DNA of 64,000 nucleotides. It comes from Cellulophaga sp. F20128. GTDB lineage: Bacteria > Bacteroidota > Bacteroidia > Flavobacteriales > Flavobacteriaceae. Under the pieces are notes generated by a model. It worked only from the letters and a program-made list of their open reading frames with translations. It was not told the origin of the DNA and did not search any database. Shown in pieces: positions 4,072-59,053 of the stretch. Every line of letters begins with the position of its first letter. The first letter of the stretch is position 1. The stretch spans positions 124,001-188,000 of the forward strand of contig NZ_JALKBA010000001.1 in NCBI RefSeq assembly GCF_023015805.1, read 5' to 3'. Made by a program: the position numbers and the translations under genes.

Positions 4072-7000
4072 TTCTTAATTAATTTGGTTGCTCCTATAAT
4101 TTCAGTTCCTTCAAAGTACACAATATACATTCCTTTAGCAAGACCAGACAATTCCATAGTTATTTTTCCATTGGCCACACTGTAGTTCTTTTGCTGTATT
4201 AGACTCCCACCAAAGGTATAAATAGCAACCTTAACACTCCCTGAAACAGGTCCAACATAAGCCGTGGTAAAATCAGCCACTGGGTTCGGAGAAATTACAG
4301 GTTTACTAGACACAAAAAAGCGTTCTTCATACACACCTTGACATTCCAGGGACGTATATATTTTTAGCGTATTCAATCCGTTTTTAAGCTTTAATTGATG
4401 ACTACCTATTTCGGTTTGCTCCAATACACCATTCAATTCTATGGAATACAATCTTGCACCACTAAGCTCAACTTCTACCTGTCTACCGTCTATACTCAGG
4501 GTAGAAAAAACATTTAAATCATCAGGTTCTGTGATCACTACATCTACACAATAAGGCTCATACGTTATACTACCATTGCTTCCTGTAATACAGATGGTAT
4601 GCACCCCTGCTTCTAAGTTTGAAAGTGATATAGCATCTGTAAAGTTCGTTGGCTGACCTTCTGAAATACGTACAGCATAATTCATAGGTGTTACTGCTTC
4701 AATAAGCACTTCTCCATTATTGGCAATACTACAAGATTCACTCTTTACCACTATCGAAAAATTATCCGGCGCATACCTATAGATGGCACACCCATTTAAA
4801 TTTACAGAAGCACCCTGAGGTGTTCCCAAGCACAAATCATCCCCATCATCAAAAATGCCGTCGTTATCTGCATCGGGTCTGAAACTACCAGCAACACAGA
4901 TGTTCAAAGCAAAATCTATCACCTGTCCCCCATCAGATGATGCACCATCTTTTACCTCTAAAATCCAATCACCCAAAAGAGACTCCCCGTTTAACGAAGC
5001 CAGAGAACCTAATGGCTTTACTGTACCATTTATGGCTGCTCCACCTCCTGCGCCACATTCAAAATTATCTGCAGCATCATCAAAAACTGCGTTTATATCT
5101 TGGTAATCACCACATGAATTTGATGTTAACACTACTCTAGTTCCCTGAGGGGATATTAAACTAATGGTTAAATCTGCCAAAAACGAATGTGTTAAATTAA
5201 GGGTCACGTTTACATCAGAAATAGGCAAATCATCTAGAAAAGTAATTTTAGACAACACGGTAGGTGTACCGATGTTTGAAATTTCTTGTGGCAAGTCTTC
5301 TGTACCCTTATCCATACAACTCACCAAGGCCGTTGTAAAACTAAAGGCTGGCCCAAAAACCCCTTCTCCGCACTCATTCTTAGGTTTCACACGCCAATAA
5401 TACAGCGTTTCAGGCTGCAAATCTATAGGATTATAGGACGTAAATAATGTAGTGGCCGTTTCTACTATAGTAGCAAAGGCATTGTCCGTAGCAATCTCCA
5501 CATCATAGGACGTATAATTGTCATTTTGTCCCCAAAATAAGGGTCCGCCCATATCAACTTCAGTTGCAGCATTCAAAGGCAATAACAATACTACATCATT
5601 ATAATCCGTATTATTTATAGTTAAATTCACGGTAACAGGAGTGGTGTTATTTTGTGAGGCAGACAATATTGTTAAGGCATAGTTTCCGTCTGCTACCGCC
5701 GCTGTATTAGAAAATTCAATTGTAAGATTCGTGTTATTTACTGTGGCCGTATTTGAAGAAAATGTTACTCCTAAATTAGCCGGAGCACCGTTAACGCTAA
5801 AGGTTGATGTTTCCGTAAATCCATTGTTTGTTTTATAGACAAAAGGAACCACCAAATCTGCCGGTTGGCAAACCGTATGTTCCAAGGCAGCAAACTGAAG
5901 CTCTACATTGGCATTGGTTACCGTAAAATTGGTAGAATTTACAGCGTAAAACACATTGTTACTCGCCTTAACCTTTATTCTTGCTGTAGCGGTTGCAACG
6001 CTAGGTATTTGAACCATTTGAGCTCCATCATTGGGAACATCTTCGGCCAGTAATCTAGTAAAAGTTAAGCCCGCATCTGTAGACAAATAAATAGATACGG
6101 TTTGGGCATTTACCGGTGCAATATGTGTATTGGCCACATCCCACGTCACTTGCTGACTTGAACCCGATTGGTAGCTTACATTTGTAGCTTGTGAGGTAAC
6201 AACAAAAGGACCCGCCGCATTCACAACGCGTACATGCATAGTCTCTGAAGCCACTTGTCCGCCACCTACCACATTATCCCTTACTGTAAATGCAAAATTA
6301 AGATCGCGTTCAACATTAGAAACTGTCTCCCAACTAGAACCCTCAGGCGGATTAATCTGGGTTAAATTCCCTTGTAAAACACGTTCCAACTCAGGGAAAT
6401 AACGCTCTGGACTAGTGGTAGGTTTCAGGGATCTAAAATTAGCGCCACTTGGATTCTCCGGACCAAAATTTGCTCTTGTAACTACACCATCATCCAGTTG
6501 CTCCCAAGTGTAGGTAAGCACATCTAGAGCATCTATATCTGTTGCTTCTCCATTTAGTACAAATGCAGTTGCTTTAGGGATCACATAATTAGCCAAAGGA
6601 GACACCAAAGGTGGATTGTTCGTAATAGGGGTAGGTACGCCACAGCTTGCGCTTTGAATATACTCCGCTATTTGAAAAATACTGTAGTAATGAAAATAAT
6701 CGTCCCCATTCATTGCAACATTATTTCCATCCGTAATCCCTGCATATCCCATAATTGTAGAACCACTACCAGGCTCTGCTTGCACAAAAGTACCTTCAGA
6801 TTCAAAAGACCATGTATGATTTGCCCCAAATTGATGACCTATTTCATGTGCAACATAATCCATATCAAACAATTCACCTTCTGGCACACTACTCGAGGAA
6901 TAAGCCCTACCCTTCCAATTATCATTACATACGGTCCCTACAGAACCCGCGTTTCCCCCATTAGGACCTTGATGAAATAGATGGCCCACATCATAATTTT

Positions 7001-57781: not shown

Positions 57782-58119
57782 AATATCTCTTATCATTTAA
57801 ATTAATTAACCGTGTTGATTCTCAACAATCTTGTCCATCTAAACTACCTAGATTAAAGGGCAAATCCAAAAAAACACAGCGGTTTAGCCTAAGTTTAACG
57901 CCTATTCTTAACGACTGTTAAACAACGCAAGGTTTTTTTACGTTATTTATCGCAAACCTAACAACTGAACAATATATTTTCTTGTTTTTCAACCGGTTAC
58001 AAGTTTTTTAACAGCCTTTTTCCTTGTTATTTAAATTATTTTTACATATTTTAAAGATTATTCTTACATTTTAAATTCGAAATAAAAGTCTATACTAATA
58101 ATTTTTAAAACTTTAAATT
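57782..58119. other. 338-base AT-rich intergenic region
   Basis: No gene or RNA fold is recognised. It separates the divergent DUF2383 and lipoprotein genes and is noticeably AT-rich toward 58000-58100. It probably holds both promoters, but no box matches TAnnTTTG exactly at a suitable place. Confidence 0.5.
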
Positions 58120-58794
58120 ATGAAAAATGGAATAAAAAAGTTCGCAAAAGGAATGTTCGCAATTCTGCTAATAAAGTTTGTTTTAATAGGTTTTACAACA
58201 CTAAACCAAGCATGCAGTATAGAACCTGAATTAAACGAAAAAGAAGCACACAAAATAGCGCTTATCAATTTCGAGAATTTAGTTAATCAAACAACTCCGA
58301 AGCTTCAGTTATTAATTCAAAATTTAGAATTCAAGGACTTAGCACCATCAAGTAAAAGTTCCAACACCTTAACGAATGCACTAATAATTCAAGAATTGGA
58401 ACCTCTAATTGAAGGAACTAAAATAATGTTTCAAAATTTTGGAATAAATCACACCGATTTTGAAAGAGAGTTTGGAAATTCTTCTGACCCCAAAATTGTA
58501 TTAGCCGGCTTAGCCTTTTTAGCAGCTCATAATTCATCCACTAGAGAAATGTCTATGAATTTATCCAATTTATTTGTTTCAAAAGTCTATGCCACGGAAT
58601 CTAAAGATAAAACCTTAGACTGCGCAGTTGAAGCCTTGGGACTAAATATCTTTGACGCAATTAGAGAACTTGGAGAAAGTGGGGCGCGAATGGCAGCAAA
58701 ATCAATTTTAAAAAATGTGGCTAAGAAATTTTTAGGCCCTATCGGTATTGCTATCACTGTTGCAGAATTTGGATGGTGTATGTCAAGAAGCTAA
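58120..58794 (+). CDS. unrecognised lipoprotein-like protein with hydrophobic C-terminal two-Cys segment
   Basis: 224 residues. A basic N-terminus and hydrophobic helix end at LNQAC, a plausible lipobox (Cys about residue 31). A helical, Asn/Glu/Leu-rich middle follows (about 45-165). The last 60 residues change character: DCAVEALGLNIFDAIREL, a basic helix KSILKNVAKKF, then the Gly/hydrophobic segment FLGPIGIAITVAEFGWC. Two Cys bracket this tail. I do not recognise a family. The tail resembles membrane-active helical peptides or bacteriocin precursors, an inference only. The stop is 4 nt before the next start. Confidence 0.72.
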   Translation: MKNGIKKFAKGMFAILLIKFVLIGFTTLNQACSIEPELNEKEAHKIALINFENLVNQTTPKLQLLIQNLEFKDLAPSSKSSNTLTNALIIQELEPLIEGTKIMFQNFGINHTDFEREFGNSSDPKIVLAGLAFLAAHNSSTREMSMNLSNLFVSKVYATESKDKTLDCAVEALGLNIFDAIRELGESGARMAAKSILKNVAKKFLGPIGIAITVAEFGWCMSRS

Positions 58795-58798
58795 ACTT

Positions 58799-59005
58799 AT
58801 GACTGTAATGGAATTAATATTATTTGTTTTCCTTCAACTGGTTTCCTTTTTTATTTTTTTAAAAGGGCTTCAAATGTTATTTAAGCAATTCAAAAGAAAA
58901 GAAAAAAAGAATCCTAAAATCATAATCCTTTCACTGTTACTTATCTTTGGAGGTGGCTATTACCTAATAAAACACAGTTTAGAATTGTCCTTTCCTGTTT
59001 TATAA
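58799..59005 (+). CDS. small two-helix membrane protein, partner of the upstream lipoprotein
   Basis: 68 residues from MTVMELILFVFLQLV (58799); the frame opens earlier (58748) inside the upstream gene, but the later start gives a 4-nt spacing and a clean first transmembrane helix. A basic loop (FKQFKRKEKKNPK) separates it from a second helix (IIILSLLLIFGGGYYLI). This is the layout of small membrane-bound immunity or accessory proteins, but no family is recognised. Tight spacing shows co-expression with the upstream lipoprotein. Confidence 0.65.
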   Translation: MTVMELILFVFLQLVSFFIFLKGLQMLFKQFKRKEKKNPKIIILSLLLIFGGGYYLIKHSLELSFPVL

Positions 59006-59024
59006 AAAAAGGCACTAGAAACCA

Positions 59025-59053
59025 TTGCCAATTAAATAGAAATTGTATATTTG
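59025..59053 (+). promoter_or_regulatory. promoter of rpsP-rimM
   Basis: TTG (59025-59027), an 18-nt spacer and the exact -7 element TATATTTG (59046-59053). Predicted transcription start is near 59059, leaving a leader of about 68 nt. Confidence 0.75.

Follow-up and report, generated by a model that had tools for sequence, protein, structure and literature searches.

What do two adjoining genes, one for a lipoprotein and the other for a small membrane protein, do between a DUF2383 gene and rpsP in a Cellulophaga genome of 4.17 Mb? They lie in the window, by which we mean the whole stretch of 64,000 nucleotides that was analysed (G000:C26:124001-188000). The sequence-only reading of this DNA had proposed an orphan pair with bacteriocin-like features. 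The features of the locus, in positions of the window, are the following.

58120-58794, + strand: lipoprotein gene, predicted toxin (ATG-started ORF, 224 aa; relatives found)
58120-58215, + strand: leader and lipoprotein signal, residues 1-32, K..KG......IK..........Q.C (invariant columns of alignment A7; leader profile search)
58216-58608, + strand: variable helical middle region, residues 33-163 (AlphaFold2 model; poor conservation)
58609-58791, + strand: conserved C-terminal tail, residues 164-224, with Cys168 at 58621-58623 and Cys220 at 58777-58779 (relatives; Cys count)
58799-59005, + strand: small two-helix membrane protein of 68 aa, predicted immunity protein (ATG-started ORF; co-occurrence)
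57925-59025, no strand: inserted cassette between the DUF2383 gene and rpsP, approximate extent (ends set by eye from the alignment; intergenic distances)

Organisation of the locus

The ORFs of 224 and 68 aa are separated by a gap of 4 bases. That a two-helix membrane protein of 68 residues follows the lipoprotein at this distance was borne out by the ORFs and by the Kyte-Doolittle rule, which gives two hydrophobic helices; the small protein has no Cys. Its ORF starts with the ATG at 58799, and a longer, TTG-started form of 85 aa begins at 58748. The lipobox-like signal that had been claimed for the 224-aa protein is present as well. It ends in ...TTLNQAC (Cys32) and is relaxed, since the residue at position -3 is Asn. 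To the left of the pair lie the DUF2383 gene, a gene for a lactonase-like protein (Pfam) and then dnaE, and to the right, by eye, rpsP and rimM. Of the AT-rich promoter region that had been proposed, only the first half stood: the upstream sequence is AT-rich by eye, but promoter-like sites near the pair were not in excess of the shuffled expectation (6 found, shuffled mean 4.7). TAnnTTTG, the Bacteroidetes-type promoter motif, was not enriched in the 3105-base locus either (6 found, 5.0 expected).

The earlier reader had recognised neither protein family, and in Pfam and NCBIfam neither window protein gave a match above the curated cut-off. The best Pfam match of the small partner was DUF2162, below the cut-off at E 0.006. 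For 15 family members, the best E-values were 0.002 in Pfam, 0.0097 in PADLOC and 0.044 in PHROG; each of these matches was limited to one member and was therefore read as chance. When solved structures were searched by sequence, a Cox6a helix was rejected as a counterpart of the tail (E 0.081), as were four matches of the whole protein (E 0.14-0.62). Foldseek, run with the full-length model against the PDB, gave a best E of 0.58 and nothing below 0.001. The window tail had no match in plasmids at E 0.01, and four plasmid matches of a Bacteroides tail (E 4-6) were unconvincing. Furthermore, the tail was not found in the phage collection, nor in viral contigs scanned with two patterns; these negatives say only that the phages sampled there do not carry the pair. 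In the open full-text literature, none of the matches listed described the tail or the pair in its title or in the opening of its abstract.

The pair and a second cassette of the same genome are insertions

The window pair is an insertion. The DUF2383 gene and rpsP are 1330 bp apart in the window, compared to 257-259 bp in the four nearest congeners, where the site is empty (G006, G002, G015 and G011), and neither window protein had a match at the corresponding locus of any of the 17 congeners. At the same site, G003 has a gap of 628 bases with a hydrophobic ORF of 76 aa, counted from the first ATG, and no lipoprotein. In the other 12 congeners, the left neighbour of rpsP is dnaE in seven and another gene in four, and in one the contig starts too near rpsP. 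The lone ORF of G003 (L068) between the DUF2383 gene and rpsP is a possible orphan immunity gene. It has no detectable similarity to the window partner (best E 8.7), so that this label goes by position and hydrophobicity only.

A second cassette of the same genome (C81) is likewise an insertion. It is located between maf and the gene of a 306-aa lipoprotein, which are adjacent in 17 of 17 congeners, and in none of the 17 did the C81 cassette proteins find a match between these two genes. The two cassettes of the genome are unlike each other, and each has closer counterparts in other genomes, which suggests that the pairs move as units. The lipoprotein frame of the second cassette (L002, G000:C81, 1312-2121) has no ATG near its signal peptide, and the same was seen for the lipoprotein frame of L015.

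Recent transfer between two Algoriphagus species, suggested by their near-identical cassettes, was considered and rejected: the flanks are close as well. The flanking genes are 92-99% identical in steps of 250 bases, with one intergenic step at 72%, and ordinary relatedness therefore looks likely. Beyond base 6000 of the locus, the two sequences are unrelated.

The family is patchily distributed across Bacteroidota

A search with the lipoprotein in 100 genomes, its own included, matched five genomes at E 0.01. These were its own genome, G071, G022 and G081 with real relatives, and G040, whose stop-ridden match was read as chance. The best relative belongs to another family of the order; it is 39% identical over the full length (E 6.1e-31) and has the same two-gene layout. 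The window pair is therefore not a chance arrangement. The same genome also harbours a paralogue (E 3.3e-7), and 0 of 17 congeners in the 100-genome search had a relative of the lipoprotein. The description of the pair as an orphan was wrong: it is a member of a widespread, unnamed family.

In addition, profiles of the tail were run at E 0.001. Counting the own genome, they matched 16 of 395 genomes of the phylum and 15 of 397 genomes of the family; three matches in the phylum set, with E between 4.6e-4 and 8.9e-4, are likely to be chance. A scan of one genome per species, covering 84,980 species, yielded nine loci, an undercount because two short peptide patterns were used. All nine are recorded as Bacteroidota: Flavobacterium (2), uncultured Flavobacteriaceae (2), Sediminibacterium, Algoriphagus (2), Bacteroides and an unclassified Bacteroidetes bacterium. 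For the family of Bacteroides sp. 214, a search at E 0.01 was positive in 7 of 201 genomes, among them the start genome and one genome already seen. The distribution of the tail domain across Bacteroidota is patchy.

The C-terminal tail is the most conserved part of the lipoprotein

The unusual C-terminus that had been pointed out, with a Cys, a basic helix, a Gly-rich hydrophobic stretch and a second Cys, is present in all its parts. In the window protein, the order is Cys168, the basic KNVAKKF, LGPIGIAITVAEFG, Cys220 and then four residues. These last ~55 residues form a domain of their own that is strongly conserved. Homologues lacking the Cys pair, which had been named beforehand as evidence against the proposal, were not seen among complete tails: two Cys are kept in 38 of 38, a count that is partly circular because the Cys columns sit in the profile by which the tails were found. 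Of the 42 tail ORFs, 38 were called complete; the incomplete ones, L014, L034, L044 and L045, did not enter the count. The spacing of the two Cys is 46-65, most commonly 53 (14 of 38), and in L095 the rule picked a Cys beyond the tail. In half of the members with a called lipid Cys (15 of 30), the pair represents the only Cys of the mature protein. Other near-invariant positions, in window numbering, are Gly174, Gly206 and Phe217. Counted from the first tail Cys onwards, 31 of the 38 tails carry a positive net charge, whereas seven are at zero or below.

Substitution rates were compared in the species pair L053/L054. For the tail, a dN/dS of ~0.04 was obtained (dN 0.041, dS 1.05), compared to ~0.21 for the front part (dN 0.399, dS 1.875, near saturation) and ~0.39 for the partner (dN 0.248, dS 0.631). 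Purifying selection in this species pair is far stronger on the tail than on the front part or the partner. Both genes therefore look real and constrained, the tail most. The second species pair, L031/L032, was too close to be informative.

The full-length AlphaFold2 model was built from an alignment of 17 rows and is helical throughout (pLDDT 77, pTM 0.69). Blocks of the middle region have a pLDDT of 83-96, except for residues 31-40 (67), 71-80 (57) and 141-160 (41-48), and the blocks of the tail reach 67-81. Structure prediction of the tail on its own gave a poor model (pLDDT 61, pTM 0.33), and a hairpin and a disulfide are therefore not claimed on structural grounds.

A conserved leader and a variable front part

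In the first 36 residues of the lipoprotein there is a conserved pattern in which a Lys interrupts the hydrophobic run. In 12 tail-bearing genomes, a profile of this leader gave 13 matches, of which 11 were below E 1e-4; all 11 are at tail loci, one of them in a different frame from its tail. The remaining two (E 0.010 and 0.013) were read as chance. Three of the 12 genomes had no match to the profile, and the leader is therefore not common to all members. The front parts vary widely, those of L027, L028 and L030 not being of the window type, and the tail rather than the leader is the most conserved part across members. The conserved Lys-containing leader might mark a dedicated export or transfer route. 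In L005 (1111-1806), leader and middle region are followed by a C-terminus that stops soon after the first tail Cys; the contig terminates a few hundred bases past the gene.

Directly after Cys32, the window lipoprotein has the residues SIEPEL. At least one acidic residue lies within six residues of the called lipid Cys in 29 of 30 members, as counted from the sequences of the family only. The sole row without one is L061, in which the rule put the lipid Cys at the wrong site. Acidic residues after the lipid Cys are a rule for surface export quoted in the part of PMC9308784 available to us, and in the sequences of this family they hint at surface export of the lipoproteins.

A small membrane protein gene accompanies the tail

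To be called a partner, an ORF had to start with ATG within 60 bases of the stop of the tail gene and encode 40-160 aa including one or more hydrophobic helices. Such a small membrane protein gene lies downstream at 35 of 37 tail loci (start -60 to +60 bp from the stop). Among background ORFs of at least 150 aa, the same test was positive for 2 of 68 at these loci and for 1 of 41 in the window. Moreover, at 5 of 5 Bacteroides-family loci fetched later, a small ORF, hydrophobic by eye, follows with gaps of 1-17 bases; two of these loci, L099 and L100, are near-identical in tail and partner. The partner thus travels with the tail at nearly all loci, a point that had been named beforehand as a check. 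Of the two misses, L060 has a 50-codon TTG-started ORF with hydrophobic segments that overlaps the gene end, and L044 is a 68-codon tail fragment with no partner. The shortened tail genes L014 and L034 keep an open partner gene.

Excluded before the count of 35 of 37 were L005 (C-terminus cut short after the first tail Cys), L006 (internal stops), L007 (same gene as L004), L009 (same protein as L032, by eye), repeat loci, and L019, L020 and L022-L025. The latter are stop-ridden or lie inside unrelated longer ORFs (E 1.2e-3 to 8.5e-3), and three of these genomes recur in the phylum search. The close pairs L031/L032 and L053/L054 were all counted. More than one small membrane gene was seen at L034, at L003 and at L004 (380-2308), where two lie downstream and a gene for a Cys-rich lipoprotein (193 aa) lies upstream.

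The partners range from 41 to 154 aa and have one to four predicted helices. Across 31 loci, tail similarity and partner similarity were correlated (Mantel r 0.59, p 0.0001); 0 of 9999 permutations reached 0.59 and the largest gave 0.35. This co-variation can partly be a product of shared ancestry. L032, L045, L014 and L034 were left out of the test by choice, and L060 and L044 have no partner call. The partners diverge more than the tails, with a mean identity of 25% compared to 37%.

The pair as a probable toxin and immunity protein

We consider it probable that the pair encodes a bacteriocin of an undescribed kind, a lipoprotein whose microcin-like tail acts on membranes, together with an immunity protein of the inner membrane. 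It would form an accessory toxin-immunity cassette directed at other bacteria. The bacteriocin and immunity reading, as first proposed, remains the best fit and survived the refutation tests that were run, while the orphan status was lost; toxicity, immunity and the disulfide we infer.

An unlikely alternative is that of a non-toxic envelope unit, in which the tail would dock to membranes as a hairpin and have the small protein as its obligate partner, for instance in stress signalling or envelope assembly. Near-constant pairing and co-variation are expected of any two-protein complex, and toxin homology is missing. However, the family is rare and patchy (16 of 395 genomes), no relative was found in any of the 17 congeners and the second site is empty in each of them, and a partner-like gene is still present at loci with a shortened or missing lipoprotein gene, which is unexpected for an obligate partner. 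A partner-like gene left in this way would resemble orphan immunity genes. We favour a toxin and its immunity protein over a plain complex because the distribution is that of an accessory insertion, the gene order is fixed and the gap tight, the small membrane partner diverges fast and seems to outlive the lipoprotein gene, and the exported lipoprotein has a compact, Cys-paired hydrophobic tail.

Anti-phage abortive infection, with the tail as a self-directed membrane effector that the small protein restrains and infection releases, is quite improbable. A patchy insertion cassette of a membrane effector and a small membrane inhibitor would look alike, but the best PADLOC match has an E of 0.0097 with each family matched by 1 of 15 members, no recognised defence gene was seen by eye among the window neighbours, and sensors of infection do not usually carry a lipoprotein signal. 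We give equally little credence to both proteins being an export or attachment device for something else, with an incidental likeness to bacteriocins: the leader is unusually conserved and confined to the family in the 12 tail-bearing genomes, but the front parts differ among members while tail and partner stay, and it is the tail that is conserved most.

For the bacteriocin and its immunity protein, a mechanism can be proposed. Judging from its sequence, the 224-aa protein would leave the cytoplasm through Sec, receive its lipid at Cys32 and end up in the outer membrane, probably on the outer face. Comparison of the members shows its tail to be a separate domain, with two Cys ~53 residues apart and two helices, one basic and the other Gly-rich and hydrophobic. 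Outside the cytoplasm, the Cys pair would form a disulfide and close the tail into a compact helical hairpin like that of a class II microcin. The tail may then reach neighbours by contact, in vesicles or after proteolytic release and insert into the neighbour's inner membrane, which would be depolarised or permeabilised. In the producer's inner membrane, the 68-aa protein would stop insertion or pore opening by the cognate tail. The variable front part could serve anchoring, receptor binding or target range. No secretion, protease or receptor gene was found within the cassette.

Comparison with known systems

In our best reading, the pair would work like the Fab1, BcpT or SitA systems. According to the part of PMC8406203 available to us, Fab1/RFab1 of Bacteroides fragilis consists of an antibacterial protein without known domains and an immunity gene directly downstream, with a patchy spread and orphan rfab1 genes. 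Fab1 is a protoxin of about 50 kDa that is cut at an Arg-Ala site and activated by fragipain, a protease (PMC8406203). As far as that text goes, our pair shares with it the phylum, the lack of known domains, a gene directly downstream (here with predicted immunity) and the patchy spread. It is set apart from the ~50 kDa Fab1 by description, through its length of 224 aa, its Cys-paired tail of ~55 residues and its partner with two helices. Among the 201 Bacteroides-family genomes, which do not necessarily include B. fragilis, no tail match was found in a Fab1-length frame; the longest had 327 codons.

BcpT/BcpI of Phocaeicola vulgatus, in the available sections of PMC9308784, is a mobile pair of a surface lipoprotein toxin and a 57-aa immunity gene just downstream. 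BcpT, a plasmid-borne protein of 499 aa, has to be cleaved twice and seems to disturb the outer membrane, and BcpI is itself a lipoprotein (PMC9308784). To the extent of this description, the likeness lies in a lipoprotein with acidic residues after the lipid Cys and a very small downstream gene. In contrast to BcpI, our partner has two hydrophobic helices and no Cys, and in contrast to the plasmid location of BcpT, the tail has no credible plasmid match. The SitA/SitI proteins of Myxococcus are described in excerpts of PMC5562445 as modular lipoprotein toxins that end in a toxin domain and have their cognate gene downstream; their tails are variable nucleases, delivered by TraA-dependent outer membrane exchange. 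The likeness to what is described there, a lipoprotein with a C-terminal domain and a downstream gene, is one of layout only: SitA tails vary, whereas the window family combines one tail type with differing front parts.

Class II microcins, such as microcin V, have a double-glycine leader and an ABC exporter. In contrast, the window leader ends in a relaxed lipobox, and no exporter gene adjoins the pair in the window. CdzC/CdzD/CdzI of Caulobacter, as portrayed in part of PMC5380434, are Gly-rich membrane toxins with a membrane immunity protein and type I secretion. With class II microcins and, within that portrayal, Cdz, the pair shares a small Gly-rich hydrophobic domain, here predicted to be membrane-active, next to a small multi-helix membrane protein, again in layout only. 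BSAP toxins are surface lipoprotein antibacterial proteins of Bacteroidota with a MACPF domain (PMC12853789, in the part available). The window family shares the phylum and the lipoprotein nature, with surface location and antibacterial role predicted only, but 15 of its members had no MACPF match in Pfam. Imm17 is a two-helix immunity family (PMC3482391, available in part); the window partner had no match to it in Pfam or NCBIfam, libraries that do not necessarily hold the Imm17 model. Bte2, a Bacteroides pore-forming type VI toxin, was rejected as a counterpart, being a different, VasX-type protein in the excerpt of PMC12718326.

As far as these sources describe them, Fab1/RFab1 and BcpT/BcpI are precedents within the phylum for the killing of neighbours by an exported protein whose immunity gene lies downstream. 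The family lacks a tested defining feature of Fab1 (size), BcpT/BcpI (lipoprotein immunity protein), class II microcins (leader, adjoining exporter) and BSAPs (MACPF), and the pair is filed under no known system.

To our knowledge, few antibacterial toxins of Bacteroidota have been characterised outside gut Bacteroidales. We tentatively suggest that Bacteroidota may carry phylum-wide lipid-anchored microcins. These would combine a conserved, disulfide-closed membrane-piercing tail, exchangeable lipoprotein fronts, often with their own leader, and rapidly diversifying immunity proteins of one to four helices in a two-gene cassette that passes between genomes, and delivery would need no dedicated secretion machine. 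The recognisable ~55-residue tail would allow candidate weapons and their immunity genes to be listed from sequence in marine, soil and gut Bacteroidota, and these small, genetically simple pairs would lend themselves to asking how a lipid-anchored protein reaches the inner membrane of a neighbour.
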